Position numbers and translations under genes: made by a program. The notes under the pieces were generated by a model. The model did no database searches and was not told the origin of the DNA. It saw only the letters and a program-made list of their open reading frames with translations. A stretch of DNA of 13,861 nt from Rhodospirillales bacterium (GTDB lineage: Bacteria > Pseudomonadota > Alphaproteobacteria > Acetobacterales > Acetobacteraceae), in assembly GCA_015654825.1 (NCBI GenBank), contig JAATGE010000645.1:1-13861 (forward strand). Reading direction: 5' to 3'. Each line of letters starts with the position of its first letter. Position 1 is the first letter of the stretch. Shown here one piece after another: positions 1,601 to 4,963 of this stretch.

Positions 1601-1869
1601 GCGTATCTCCGGGGGGAGGCCCTGCTATACTCGCTTGCGCCCCGTAAGCCAGGACAGTTTCCCGCGAGGCACCCGCGGCCACCCGATTGCCCGCCCCCTC
1701 CGCGCCTCAACCATTAATTGCGCACCTAGAGCAAAATGCTCACGCCAAGGCTATCGCCGAAGTCTGTTCAGCCCGCCCCGCGATGAACGAAAATCCGCGC
1801 CTTGCATTGCAAGTAACGCACCAAGCGCCGCGCGCCGACAGTCGCCACAATCAAAACCCGAAGCGCCCC
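1601..1869. promoter_or_regulatory. Divergent intergenic region with two short dyads
   Basis: This region separates two divergent exported-protein genes and should hold both promoters. Two perfect dyads are visible: GAGCA-AAA-TGCTC at 1729-1741 and CTTGCA-T-TGCAAG at 1801-1813, the latter 56 bases before the GloVer-repeat gene. They could be operators, but nothing identifies a regulator. On the minus strand, CTGGCT-17 bp-TATAGC is a weak sigma70-like match upstream of the amidohydrolase. An open frame runs through from 1687 but looks non-coding before 1870. Confidence 0.3.
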
Positions 1870-3174
1870 ATGAGGAACCTTCCACGCATGACGCACCAAG
1901 CCGGCACCGCGCTACTCGCCTGTGCGGCCTGCGCCGGCCTCGCCGGCCCCGCCCGCGCCACCCCCACCGAAACGACGCTCTACGGCGCACAATGCACCCC
2001 CAACGCCAGCGTGCTGCTCGCGAGCCTCATCCAGCCGACGCCCGGAAGCCTCATCGGCACCAGCTTCGCCGGCGGCCTCCTGAATATCGGCTCGGTCTTC
2101 CGACTGATGCGCAACCGCATCGTCAGCCGCCTCTGGCCGGAATCGGTGCTCTACAGTTTCGGTTCGCACACCGACCCACCCCCCGCGTCCGATCCCGCCA
2201 GCCCCATGGCCGGCCTGCTCCCCGGCCCCGGCGGCGTCTTCTACGGCACCGGCTACTACAGCAACGATCCCGGCTGCGGCGGCAACGGCTGCGGCGCCAT
2301 CTACCAGCTCACCCCCTCCCCCCACAGCGCCGCCCCCTGGCAGGAACAGGTCCTCTACGATTTCCTCGGCATGCCGGACGGCCAGAACCCCGTCGGCAAC
2401 CTCGTCGCCGACGCCTCCGGCGCGCTCTACGGCGTCACCACCAACGGCGGCGCCACCGGCGCCGGCGCCGTCTTCCGCCTGACGCCACCAGCAACCGCCG
2501 GCCACCCCTGGAAGCCCACCATCCTCTACAGCTTCCAGAACGGCCCCGACGGCGGCTTCCCCGCCGCCGGCCTCCTCATCGACGCCAACGGCGTGCTCTA
2601 CGGCACCACCGCCGACAGCGGCCAACTCGGCGCCGGAACAATCTTCCAACTCGCCCCGCGCGGCAAAGGCAACGCCTGGCAGGAAACCGTTTTGTACACG
2701 TTCGGCATTTCCGGCGCCCCCGACGACGGCGACCAGCCAATGGCCAGCCTGATCGCCGACACCTCCGGCGCGCTCTACGGCACCACGATCTTCGGCGGCA
2801 CCGCCGGCCGCGGCACCGTCTTCAGGCTGAAACCACCGAAATCCGGCAAACACCACTGGCGCGAAACGACCCTGTACAGCTTCACCAACACCGGCGACGG
2901 CGCGCTCCCCGGCGCCGCCGTCTTGCTGAAATCGAAATCCCTCTACGGCACCACCGAAGGCACCGGCGCCACCGGCAGCTACGGAACCGTATTCCAACTC
3001 ACCCCGGCCCCCGGCACCAGCCCGTGGACCGAAACGACCCTGTACAGCTTTACCGGCGGCGCCGACGGCAAATACCCGCTCGCCGCCCTGATTTCGGACG
3101 GCACGAATTTTTATGGCACCACCGAATCCGGCGGGCCCAAGGGCTGCGGCGTGGTGTTTCAGGTTACGCCGTAG
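1870..3174 (+). CDS. Exported GloVer tandem-repeat protein (TIGR03803-type), seven repeats
   Basis: Function unknown. The mature protein is almost entirely made of about 50-residue repeats of the form LYSF-x-DG-x-P-x-A-x-L-x-D-x-G-x-LYGTT-x-GG-x-GxGTVFxLTP, the pattern of the GloVer repeat family. I count seven units, the first degenerate and lacking the LYGTT core. Units are joined by short linkers ending in W-x-E-T-x-LY. Seven such units suggest a seven-bladed beta-propeller (inference). The chosen ATG gives 434 residues with two arginines, a hydrophobic stretch and a cleavage-like ARA before TP. An in-frame ATG at 1888 has GAGGA 11 bases upstream and is a good alternative, but removes both arginines. 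LLAC in the leader resembles a lipobox but sits early in the hydrophobic stretch. The frame is open upstream to 1687, but that part looks untranslated. No C-terminal sorting signal is seen. Confidence 0.83.
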   Translation: MRNLPRMTHQAGTALLACAACAGLAGPARATPTETTLYGAQCTPNASVLLASLIQPTPGSLIGTSFAGGLLNIGSVFRLMRNRIVSRLWPESVLYSFGSHTDPPPASDPASPMAGLLPGPGGVFYGTGYYSNDPGCGGNGCGAIYQLTPSPHSAAPWQEQVLYDFLGMPDGQNPVGNLVADASGALYGVTTNGGATGAGAVFRLTPPATAGHPWKPTILYSFQNGPDGGFPAAGLLIDANGVLYGTTADSGQLGAGTIFQLAPRGKGNAWQETVLYTFGISGAPDDGDQPMASLIADTSGALYGTTIFGGTAGRGTVFRLKPPKSGKHHWRETTLYSFTNTGDGALPGAAVLLKSKSLYGTTEGTGATGSYGTVFQLTPAPGTSPWTETTLYSFTGGADGKYPLAALISDGTNFYGTTESGGPKGCGVVFQVTP

Positions 3175-3206
3175 GAACCAAGTTTTAGGTTACGCCATAG
3201 GAACAA
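3161..3206 (+). repeat. 26-bp tandem duplication of the GloVer gene 3' end
   Basis: Bases 3161-3180 (AGGTTACGCCGTAGGAACCA) recur at 3187-3206 with two differences, 26 bp further on. The first copy contains the gene's stop codon; the second lies just downstream. It looks like a local duplication of the gene end followed by a few mutations. Confidence 0.75.
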
Positions 3207-3212
3207 AAAAGA

Positions 3213-3263
3213 CCGGGGGCTCTGCGCCCTGGACCCCCGACGGCGTGCCGCCGCGCCTTCCGG
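3213..3263 (+). repeat. Dispersed GC-rich hairpin repeat, copy A (divergent)
   Basis: This copy contains GGGCTCTG-CG-CCCTGGACCC, matching the core of copy D (8531-8548) except for a two-base insertion. GGGGG (3215-3219) can pair with CCCCC (3234-3238). A second hairpin, CGGCG-TGC-CGCCG, is at 3241-3253. It lies about 40 bp after the GloVer-repeat gene, but without a T-run, so it is not a classical intrinsic terminator. Confidence 0.6.
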
Positions 3264-3332
3264 CGGCCGCCTTCTAGGCCGCGGCCTTATCGACGAATCC
3301 TCGGCAGTTGAATTTAGCTTTTCCGCCGGCTT

Positions 3333-3455
3333 TCAATGCTGTGGAACCGCCTTCATGACGGTATCAACGGCACACTCGAAGCGCTCCTGTACGTCTGGGC
3401 TTTTGTCCGGCGCTGACTTATCGGCGATCTCTTGATGCTTAGCAATATTCCGGCC
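3333..3455 (-). pseudogene. 40-codon ORF remnant without a start codon
   Basis: On the minus strand an open frame begins after a TAG at 3456-3458 and ends with TGA at 3333-3335. It encodes a soluble, charged C-terminal-like peptide containing HQEIADKSAPDKSPDVQERF and ending VPQH. There is no ATG, GTG or TTG start before that block, only an in-frame ATG near the end. It follows the BECR-DUF2283 gene on the same strand by five bases but in a different frame. The composition looks protein-like rather than random, so it may be the tail of a decayed third gene of that operon. No family is recognised, and chance cannot be excluded at this length. Confidence 0.35.
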
Positions 3456-3460
3456 CTAGC

Positions 3461-4081
3461 CTATACGGCGTTTTGAAAAAGATTCGCCAGAAACTCCGCA
3501 GATATGCTCAAAGTTGACGCAATTTTCTCGCGGTATTCTGCCCTGGTTGCCGCGTCCAAGGAACGCATGCCCATAATCGTCGCATCAACAGGTTTGTCGC
3601 TCTTCGAGTATCCGATATAAAGACCTTCCGCCACCTCCTCATCCTCTATGGAGGATACAGGTGTCGTTGCGATATACATGACATCGTTCGTGTCGTCATA
3701 TGACGCTACTGCCGGAACCCCACCGGACTCACTAGACCAGACAAGAGCTCCAAGTTTAGGGCTTCTGCAATAAAAAGCAGTAACAACCTCATTGGCTTCA
3801 TACCCTGGCGTTTTTGCCTCCACGAATACAAGCAATTGGTGGCCATTATCGTTGACCACTTGTTTACTGGTCATCACGTGCCGTAAATCCCACCTTTTAT
3901 CTCTGTAAGTCGCATCAGCCTGTGAAATGGTCATTTGGACTCCCGCCACAGTGACACCCTGTTGCGATTTGAACGGCTCAATGTGGCGTTGCCATGTTTC
4001 ATGGGCGAGTACGACTCGCTCCCTATGGAAAGGGGACTCAACTGCCAAAATAGCTGGACGATTAGGTGATGGCTGCTTCAT
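3461..4081 (-). CDS. Putative BECR/DUF4258-like nuclease-fold domain fused to a DUF2283-like domain
   Basis: Hypothetical protein of 206 residues. Residues about 20-105 carry the pattern RVVLAHETWQRHI (H28, W30, H33), then a helix, QADATYRDKRWD, and strands ending EVVTAFY. This resembles small barnase-EndoU-ColicinE5/D-RelE (BECR) domains such as DUF4258 or PBECR. Residues about 123-175 (SYDDTNDVMYI, then EDEEVAEGLYIGY and VDATIMGM) match the DUF2283 pattern of a YD-x-x-x-D-x-x-YI strand followed by an E-rich turn and a G-x-x-x-x-Y strand. Separate DUF4258 and DUF2283 genes are often neighbours in bacteria, so this looks like a fusion. Its ATG overlaps the stop of the upstream DUF3467-like gene (ATGA), with AAGG seven bases upstream, implying translational coupling. 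Both assignments are by eye; the DUF2283 call is firmer than the nuclease-fold call. The surrounding DNA is less GC-rich than the rest of the window. Confidence 0.78.
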   Translation of the reverse strand: MKQPSPNRPAILAVESPFHRERVVLAHETWQRHIEPFKSQQGVTVAGVQMTISQADATYRDKRWDLRHVMTSKQVVNDNGHQLLVFVEAKTPGYEANEVVTAFYCRSPKLGALVWSSESGGVPAVASYDDTNDVMYIATTPVSSIEDEEVAEGLYIGYSKSDKPVDATIMGMRSLDAATRAEYREKIASTLSISAEFLANLFQNAV

Positions 4082-4371
4082 TTGTTGGCCTTGGGATCAG
4101 CAACTTGAAATTCTGGAATTGTTGTCGAGAAGGTTCTCTCGTAGTAATCAACATACCCCTTCAACTGAGCGATCAAAGTCTTCGCTACCGGGGCGCCTAT
4201 AGTTATCTTTGCCACTCGCTTCTGGTGACTGGTCGCCGTCCCGTCTTCCGCGAAGACGTGAATAAGCTTAAGGAGATATAGCGTAACTTCGCTGGAATCC
4301 CCTACTAGGTTGACGTTACTCGCATAGAAGGCCGGCAGATCATCTATCAACTCGTTGGAGTTACCAGGCAT
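4078..4371 (-). CDS. DUF3467-like small protein
   Basis: A 97-residue soluble protein of unknown function. The order of features fits DUF3467: an N-terminal FYASNVNLVGDSSEVTLYLL segment (the family has a YANN-x-x-V-type start), a variable charged middle, then KRVAKITIGAPVAKTLIAQL followed by a helix with YVDYYERTF. Length is normal for that family, about 100 residues. The ATG has AGGGG about eight bases upstream. Its TGA overlaps the next gene's ATG, so the two are almost certainly made together, with this protein first. A weak sigma70-like match lies upstream on the same strand. In a toxin-antitoxin-like reading this would be the first-encoded partner, but no function is established for the family. 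Hand counting 4081-4140 gives 26 G+C of 60, against 42 of 60 for 10441-10500 in ispDF. Confidence 0.74.
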   Translation of the reverse strand: MPGNSNELIDDLPAFYASNVNLVGDSSEVTLYLLKLIHVFAEDGTATSHQKRVAKITIGAPVAKTLIAQLKGYVDYYERTFSTTIPEFQVADPKANK

Positions 4372-4400
4372 TCCCCAAACCCCTCATCAAAGACCGCCTT

Positions 4401-4428
4401 TTTCTACCAGTTTAGTAGAGGATTTGAA
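4401..4428 (-). promoter_or_regulatory. Candidate promoter of the DUF3467-like operon
   Basis: On the minus strand TTCAAA (4428-4423) is followed after 16 bp by TAGAAA (4406-4401). Each hexamer matches four of six sigma70 consensus positions, and the -10 lies about 30 bases before the ATG. The match is weak and rests on position as much as sequence. Confidence 0.25.
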
Positions 4429-4595
4429 CGTTACCCGCTGTAACCAAGCTGTCATAATTCGAACCAGCGCCCAGGTGTTATGCAAGAAACGGCGATGGCG
4501 CCCCCTATATCTGTGGGACGGCCCGGCTGGAGCGGGCGGGGGGTAGGTATCTAGTTCAGGGGGTGCCCCCCCGTTCCCCTTCTGGGCAGTCTGAT

Positions 4596-4670
4596 GGGCG
4601 CGGGAGCTGGCGCCCTGGGATCTCGGGCTTACCACCCTGTCTCCAGAGGGTTCGATCCCCTCCGCCTCCA
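4596..4670 (+). ncRNA. tRNA/tmRNA-like 3' end (T-arm plus acceptor strand), possible integration-site remnant
   Basis: GAGGG-TTCGATC-CCCTC at 4646-4662 is a perfect T-arm with five base pairs and a seven-base loop. It is followed by CGCCTCC plus discriminator A (4663-4670), exactly where an acceptor 3' strand belongs; TCCA follows instead of CCA. Upstream is a GGGCGC/GCGCCC hairpin (4596-4615), but no matching 5' acceptor strand (GGAGGCG or GGGGGCG), D-arm or anticodon arm can be found within 90 bases. Nor is a tag-encoding stretch found in the nearby DNA. It fits the acceptor piece of a split alphaproteobacterial tmRNA, or the 3' tail of a tRNA-Ser left by an integrated element. Antisense reading gives MEAEGIEP, a frequent false-ORF signature opposite such RNAs. 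Confidence 0.5.
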
Positions 4671-4688
4671 TCCAACCCACGTTTGCGG

Positions 4689-4710
4689 TGCACCACATAT
4701 GCACCACTAT
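4689..4710 (+). repeat. Two-copy 11-bp tandem repeat
   Basis: TGCACCACATA is followed directly by TGCACCACTAT. The pair also forms an inverted repeat, GGTGCA (4687-4692) with TGCACC (4700-4705). It lies 18 bp beyond the tRNA-like 3' end. The role is unknown; short repeats of this kind occur near recombinase sites, but nothing proves that here. Confidence 0.4.
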
Positions 4711-4750
4711 GCGGACATATAGGGCCTTTGGCACGTTGCGTCACGCGCAA

Positions 4751-4767
4751 TTTCGCTTGCAGCGAAA
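4751..4767. repeat. Perfect 7-bp inverted repeat
   Basis: TTTCGCT-TGC-AGCGAAA forms a seven-pair stem with a three-base loop. No T-run follows on the plus strand and only mixed A/T follows on the minus, so a terminator is not convincing. It may be a protein-binding dyad or a structured RNA remnant. Confidence 0.4.
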
Positions 4768-4890
4768 GTTACTTTGGTTGCGCTGAACTTTACCTGGTCC
4801 TGGAAACTTCTGAAAATAAACCTTGCCAGCTTTCCAGCAAGATCGCGGTCAACTAACAAGCGCAAATCTAACCCGTTCACTGACTGCCAA

Positions 4891-4904
4891 TCTTATCAAT
4901 AAGA
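4891..4904. promoter_or_regulatory. TCTTAT-CA-ATAAGA dyad upstream of the TetR-like gene
   Basis: A perfect 14-bp dyad sits in the AT-rich region upstream of a TetR-like gene. TetR-family proteins usually bind palindromes near their own promoters, so it is a candidate operator. A second perfect palindrome, GAAAATTTTC, lies at 4967-4976 between the promoter-like motif and the start codon and is an equally good candidate. Confidence 0.3.
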
Positions 4905-4934
4905 CATTGAAATCACTGTTGTTTATAAATGGCG

Positions 4935-4963
4935 CTGCCACGGCGCATTGTCGCGGCTATAAT
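4935..4963 (+). promoter_or_regulatory. Sigma70-like promoter with consensus -10, upstream of the TetR-like gene
   Basis: CTGCCA (4935-4940) is separated by 17 bp from a perfect TATAAT (4958-4963). Transcription would start near 4970 and give a leader of about 45 bases before the ATG at 5017. In GC-rich DNA a perfect -10 with ideal spacing is notable, though the -35 matches only four of six positions. Confidence 0.5.

Follow-up and report, generated by a model that had tools for sequence, protein, structure and literature searches.

Two small, overlapping genes on the minus strand of the window, by which we mean the whole stretch of 13,861 nucleotides that was analysed, raise the question of what kind of unit they form. 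The initial annotation had proposed that a DUF3467-like protein is followed by a BECR-type nuclease-fold domain fused to a DUF2283-like domain, and that the pair might behave as a toxin-antitoxin-like module. Judged from its sequence, the gene pair looks like a fused form of a three-gene module that is conserved and resembles a toxin-antitoxin system. The three parts are recognised by profile, they keep one order and a close packing, and their relatives occur in mobile settings. We put the probability at roughly 0.55 that the gene pair represents one copy, divergent and partly fused, of a mobile DUF3467/BECR-like/DUF2283 module that acts like a toxin-antitoxin system. Such a module offers a testable role for DUF2283 and DUF3467, two families of unknown function, and the fused copy could serve for studying the cis restraint of a BECR nuclease.

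The gene pair and its near copy

The open reading frames bear out the two minus-strand genes and the ATGA that they share (Table 1). The motifs EVVTAFY and SYDDTNDVMYI and the residues W30 and H33 had been read correctly, but the first histidine is H27 and not H28 as originally numbered. The C-terminal half of the 206-amino-acid protein had been called DUF2283-like, and this call holds, with PF10049 matching residues 127-170 at 24.7 bits, over the curated cut-off of 23.

Table 1. Positions of the gene pair, its domains and its surroundings in the window.
Feature	Position	Strand	Basis
97-aa DUF3467-like protein (leading module gene)	4078..4371	-	ORF, profile score and blastp
206-aa fusion protein, BECR-like half and DUF2283 half	3461..4081	-	ORF; in-frame fusion also in P0001
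BECR-like half, putative nuclease fold, residues 10-119	3725..4054	-	Profile of relatives and hhalign
DUF2283 domain, residues 127-170	3572..3703	-	Pfam PF10049
C-terminal extension past DUF2283, residues 171-206	3464..3571	-	Also in the L033 DUF2283 protein
ATGA stop/start overlap of the two genes	4078..4081	-	Sequence
Low-GC stretch around the module, limits approximate	3300..4950	.	GC profile

Beyond DUF2283, neither window protein matched anything worth naming in Pfam, PHROGs, NCBIfam or PADLOC, and sequence searches of the PDB yielded nothing usable. The 97-amino-acid protein had no match to DUF3467 (PF11950, cut-off 25 bits) or to any other Pfam family up to E 10, and PADLOC gave nothing for it beyond a 13.6-bit match to a restriction enzyme. 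A direct search of 5.8 billion proteins returned this protein only itself, and returned the fusion protein only itself and a near copy, P0001. The fusion protein had no relative in 99 other genomes, genome contigs or viral contigs, and its only matches on plasmids and phages had E-values of 0.3 or more. P0001 differs slightly in sequence, belongs to a cluster whose longest contig has 171,650 bases, and also carries the fusion in frame; LRQL replaces the last 20 residues of the window protein, and the length of an A-run at 3523-3526 of the minus strand would explain this difference, which may be a sequencing or assembly error. Besides this near copy, the window is the sole fused copy of the module among the records read.

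A conserved three-gene module

Reading the genes around 33 further DUF2283 loci, drawn from 385 genomes of the class, led to relatives. At one of these loci, on a proteobacterial MAG (L033), a DUF3467-like gene (Pfam E 0.012, under the cut-off), a gene for a 118-amino-acid protein, and a DUF2283 gene (33.9 bits) are consecutive. The start of the 118-amino-acid protein is a chosen internal ATG, and a database protein of the same length (P0003) is 100% identical to it over the whole query. Each part of the window pair resembles its counterpart there, where the pairwise E-values are single comparisons without composition correction: the 97-amino-acid protein is 26% identical over 76 residues (E 2e-6), the N-terminal half of the fusion is 35% identical over 37 residues at the VVTAF...LVWSS end (E 5e-4), and residues 113-205 are 23% identical to the DUF2283 protein over about 94 residues (blastp, E 1e-6).

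A neighbourhood survey, which the initial annotation had suggested, revealed a conserved association, with the same three parts in the same order in six other records that span two phyla and include plasmids, a phage and viral contigs. Ten records besides the window carry a readable BECR gene of the module type (L033, L034, L078, L081, L082, L083, L084, L085, L134 and L136), and in six of them (L033, L078, L081, L082, L084 and L136) DUF3467, BECR-like and DUF2283 stand as three packed genes. Of the six settings, one is the proteobacterial MAG and one a Staphylococcus phage, and the others are two Bacillota plasmids and two viral contigs. Within these complete modules, neighbouring genes overlap or are separated by 4 bases or fewer, and the window genes likewise overlap. 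On the Anoxybacillus plasmid L078, DUF3467 (40.7 bits), a PBECR2-matching protein (22.7 bits) and DUF2283 (40.9 bits) each overlap the next. The order recurs on an S. nepalensis plasmid (L082) and in Staphylococcus phage phiSP119-2 (L084), where the outer domains are below the Pfam cut-offs (DUF3467 20.2 bits and none, DUF2283 14.5 and 21.9 bits, respectively) and are called from alignment with other members and from position. The viral contig L081, read by ORF and profile without Pfam, has the full three-gene order. On the other viral contig, L136, BECR and DUF2283 adjoin DUF3467; this record was retrieved by DUF3467 alone and is therefore an independent test of the gene order. Because the BECR proteins of L078 and L081 are 95% alike, the six complete modules represent about five lineages.

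Excluded from the ten are second copies of L082 and L081 (L132 and L133) and of L033 (L045 and L046), a remnant (L086), a 14.2-bit match with no partner genes seen (L088), and the weak matches L047, L089 and L090. A further 17 relatives of the L033 BECR protein come from contigs no longer than 3904 bases and are outside the neighbourhood counts. The remnant retains a whole DUF2283, and of BECR just the final 32 residues are matched; loss in this direction is what one would expect if BECR depends on DUF2283. In the group of the window, the module BECR is rare: it was found in 2 of the 385 class genomes, one of them weakly, in 1 of 11 genomes in the order of the L033 genome, and in 4 of 299 genomes of the phylum, namely the window by construction and three weak matches. 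Searches with the L033 proteins against plasmids, phages and viral contigs gave no match except for DUF2283 on plasmids.

With these relatives in hand, the DUF3467-like call for the 97-amino-acid protein is upheld by profile, although Pfam is without a match. A profile of five module DUF3467 proteins, from which the window was left out, gives it 17.4 bits; 2000 shuffled sequences reach at most 5.6 bits with this profile, and the highest-scoring ORF from outside the family, out of 2147 in the loci and the window, reaches 7.7. With 32 canonical DUF3467 proteins its score is 10.3 bits, compared with at most 6.8 for 2000 shuffles. The module relatives themselves fall on both sides of the PF11950 cut-off, L078 (40.7 bits) and L136 (38.0) over it and L082 (20.2) and L033 (16.1) under it, and L084 has no match. 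By these comparisons, the 97-amino-acid protein is DUF3467-like, short of the Pfam family cut-off. The domain calls and the conserved association of the three parts are thus supported at the level of sequence.

The BECR-like half and its putative catalytic residues

No BECR family of Pfam matches the N-terminal half of the fusion, even at E 10. The BECR-like fold that had been proposed for it is nevertheless favoured by the profile of relatives. Against 12 module BECR proteins, in a profile built without the window, the half scores 32.5 bits (best of 2000 shuffles, 7.7), and hhalign gives a probability of 96%, with 110 columns aligned across residues 8-119. A set of 15 module-type BECR proteins, narrower and more redundant than the 12-member set, gives 18.1 bits (best of 2000 shuffles, 6.7), also without the window. 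Against the L033 BECR family alone, the hhalign probability is only 13.9%, and the profile of that family does not find the window at E 0.05. When seven module BECR proteins were scanned singly in Pfam, two matched PBECR2 and two PBECR3, all below the cut-offs, one matched MuF_C at E 0.2, and two matched nothing. For PBECR2 (PF18810, cut-off 27.1), the two relatives score 22.7 (L078) and 23.6 bits, and the window protein has no match. In hhalign, the module BECR profile compared with 17 PBECR2 domains gives 76% for the 15-member set and 86% for the 12-member set. Therefore, we consider a BECR identity of the N-terminal half likely, not certain.

According to the available part of PMC5512222, BECR endoRNases are characterized by a histidine in a helix and a serine or threonine in strand 4. 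In the window, Thr101 occupies what is predicted to be the strand-4 position and is kept in 13 of 13 aligned sequences. The histidine of an HPE-like motif, found in 12 of 12 aligned relatives, is absent from the window, where the alignment has a gap or, if ungapped, Lys38; the window keeps His33, five residues before it. A proline of all 12 aligned relatives is Ala55 in the window. Because the histidine is missing, the window copy may be inactive, and its BECR half may be dead, altered, or misaligned at the histidine position.

The fusion could thus belong to a decaying or inactivated module whose BECR half is without catalysis, the chain being a remnant or an antitoxin-like or RNA-binding protein. 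This is possible, though we hold it to be somewhat unlikely. The absent histidine and proline agree with it, as do the A-run difference of P0001 that turns the last 20 residues into LRQL, the lack of an integrase among the nine window proteins scanned in Pfam, and the existence of inactive PBECR domains such as that of Mu MuF (PMC5512222, in the part available). Against decay, the ATGA packs two open frames together, Thr101 is retained along with the overall pattern, and the A-run difference may be an error of sequencing or assembly. Moreover, one PBECR clade has arginine in place of the histidine (same source and part), and the window would have Lys38 there if the alignment is ungapped.

Which partner may restrain the putative nuclease

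In the reading that we prefer, of a divergent and partly fused copy of the module, the BECR part would be or would once have been an endoribonuclease toxin, and the adjacent DUF2283 protein would bind and restrain it. The DUF3467 protein, translated first, may stabilise or regulate the pair in the manner of the chaperone of tripartite systems. The toxin and DUF2283 of the window form one chain, and restraint would therefore be in cis. From knowledge of the families, we infer both an active nuclease and a DUF2283 restraint in cis, and either may prove otherwise.

The gene counts bear on this division of roles. DUF2283 is the next gene after BECR in 9 of the 10 module-type records and doubtful in the tenth, L134, which was retrieved by a BECR query along with two known loci and whose next gene could at most be called DUF2283-like, scoring 4.6 bits and going unmatched by DUF2283 in Pfam. 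When the three records retrieved by DUF2283 (L033, L034 and L078) are set aside, DUF2283 is next in 6 of 7 with one doubtful. DUF3467 precedes BECR in 6 of 10, or in 5 of 9 without L136, and was not seen before BECR in L085, L034 and L134. In the remaining record, the Leptospira noguchii plasmid L083 (2172-2996), UPF0175, BECR-like and DUF2283 genes are consecutive, with UPF0175 in the place of DUF3467.

The adjacency of BECR and DUF2283 genes had been described as common, and it is so in the class: a BECR-type gene lies directly upstream of DUF2283 at 20 of the 33 other loci, 18 times DUF4258-like and twice module-type. The DUF4258-like seed was chosen from the same 33 loci, and therefore only the position is a test; of 20 upstream proteins submitted to the Pfam DUF4258 model, it recognised 7. 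At one of the 18, L012 (3152-3658), the DUF4258-like sequence (18.3 bits) is inside the DUF2283 ORF, possibly as another fusion or a decayed gene. DUF3467 is present at 1 of the 33 loci. A Thermus plasmid and a Rhodothermus plasmid, kept outside the ten module-type records, likewise have DUF2283 after a BECR-type gene (DUF4258-like by eye in the latter) and no DUF3467. The module BECR profile and the DUF4258-like set reach only 11% in hhalign, so the BECR-type neighbours of these two sorts may belong to different families.

The roles could also be reversed, with DUF3467 as the antitoxin, encoded by the first gene, and DUF2283 as a portion of the nuclease with an accessory or dimerising role. 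DUF3467 does come first in all six complete modules, an antitoxin-before-toxin order is reported for DUF4258 and several other BECR toxins in the accessible part of PMC11980606, and DUF3467-like genes adjoin UPF0150/HicA and RelE-like genes. We nevertheless judge this arrangement unlikely, given that DUF2283 follows BECR almost throughout the ten records, whereas DUF3467 is missing from four of them, and that DUF2283 is paired with DUF4258-like genes without DUF3467 at 18 of the 33 class loci.

DUF3467 also has neighbours outside the module. On the viral contig L137 (1-1088), which the DUF3467 query retrieved along with L136 and a known locus, DUF3467 lies directly before a UPF0150/HicA pair instead of BECR/DUF2283; we take this UPF0150 protein to be HicB-like. 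At L006 (8-1277), RelE-like (Gp49, E 0.076), HTH (HTH_3, E 0.0078) and DUF3467-like (24.8 bits) genes stand in a row; because NCBIfam names none of the L006 genes as a toxin-antitoxin part, this locus is only suggestive of such a link. L130 and L131 have DUF3467 without BECR or DUF2283 alongside in the stretches scanned, and around 30 further DUF3467 loci (L048-L077, approximately 1.5 kb on each side) no ORF scored above 4 bits as BECR. In L131 (2001-2667), which is Staphylococcus phage vB_SpsX-DS12, a gene of 121 amino acids with a hydrophobic end by eye overlaps DUF3467 (41.9 bits). As a speculative extension, which we find doubtful, DUF3467-like proteins would be a general third component of several kinds of toxin-antitoxin system (BECR-DUF2283, HicB-HicA and RelE-like), and the window would encode a BECR-DUF2283 chain that restrains itself and is kept poised by a DUF3467-like partner, forming a single-chain sensor comparable to fused CapRel. 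CapRel is described as a fused toxin-antitoxin sensor in the part of PMC13423816 available. If DUF3467 is truly linked with other toxin-antitoxin pairs as well, this would point to a further class of third protein in such systems.

The phage and plasmid settings of the relatives would also suit an RNA-processing module for lysogeny or early gene control that is no toxin-antitoxin system at all. LexA repressor and antirepressor genes lie upstream in L078, a LexA-like ORF (by eye) lies upstream in L081, repressor and antirepressor genes are near the module in L084, and a peptidase-like ORF (by eye) adjoins it on the viral contig L136; furthermore, the phage RNase RegB, itself of BECR type, cuts early phage mRNAs (PMC5512222, available part). 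We regard this as quite improbable: the module is also on MAG contigs (L033 and the window) on which phage genes were not noticed by eye, and bacterial genomes of the class often have DUF2283 next to a BECR-type gene. Chance, in the form of unrelated small ORFs or of a fusion made by assembly, is extremely improbable even for a single source genome in 680 contigs that is 66% complete, since both parts score well above 2000 shuffles, the fusion recurs in P0001 with its cluster's contig of 171,650 bases, and the order conserved in other records already contradicts it.

Comparison with known systems

Among described systems, PBECR2 (PF18810) and the phage BECR nucleases of polyvalent proteins share with the module the same sequence pattern and the final threonine, as far as the available part of PMC5512222 describes them. 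In contrast to PBECR2, the module BECR proteins are below the cut-off of 27.1 and are small stand-alone genes with DUF3467 and DUF2283 partners, and the window is without the histidine. The DUF4258-DUF2283 pairs are similar in that a BECR-type gene directly precedes DUF2283, but they have no DUF3467, and their BECR proteins are linked to those of the module by no more than the 11% given above. In the part of PMC11980606 consulted, 195 fused BECR-antitoxin genes are tabulated, which, like the window, encode a BECR-fold domain and a partner domain in one chain. The partners are HigA, YiaG, MqsA, BrnA, HTH, ParD, YefM and the like, and neither DUF2283 nor PBECR2 is among those tabulated in that part. 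Tripartite toxin-antitoxin-chaperone systems (HigBAC), as presented in the same part of that source, also have three small genes, a BECR-type toxin and a third protein. By sequence, no match to the SecB chaperone was found for the 97-amino-acid protein in Pfam or for a DUF3467 alignment in the PDB search.

In the literature searched, which is a limited collection, no description of the three-part module and no mention of DUF2283 were found; the sole mention of DUF3467, in a source available in part, concerns chlorhexidine, and the sole match for the accessions PF10049, PF11950 and PF18810 is a use of PF10049 for a calcineurin-like protein.

The DNA setting of the gene pair

The pair had been described as lying in DNA less GC-rich than its neighbours, and a profile in 500-base windows agrees, with a GC content of 0.49-0.54 at 3251-4500 compared with 0.60-0.73 in windows ending by 3500 and 0.63-0.73 in windows starting from 5001. 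Pfam shows nothing unusual in the flanking genes scanned, namely a sigma-54 response regulator, a histidine kinase, a dihydrouridine synthase and a fused IspD-IspF. In a genome of the same genus (G001), a copy of the response regulator (87% identity) is accompanied by a tachylectin-like gene, as in the window, and at this site the 97-amino-acid protein, the fusion and a TetR-like protein are all without a match. The fusion protein has no match elsewhere in G001 either, and a DNA search of that genome for 3300-4950 gave no match in the 7 of 204 candidates scored. The low-GC stretch therefore looks like an insertion, although the Pfam scan showed no integrase, as noted above, and ARAGORN found no tRNA gene in the window.

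Three minor features of the window were also observed. Positions 4640-4675 of the plus strand resemble, by eye, the T-arm and acceptor end of a tRNA-Ser or tmRNA gene, the rest of which is absent; ARAGORN and Rfam gave nothing there, and the sequence might be an attachment-site scar next to the module. The gene at 1687-3174 of the plus strand encodes a repeat protein with a weak Tachylectin match, and its repeats are also evident in the DNA. Finally, a short dispersed repeat at 3198-3254 has more copies in its own genome and in the same-genus genome, with 89-98% identity among the matches listed.
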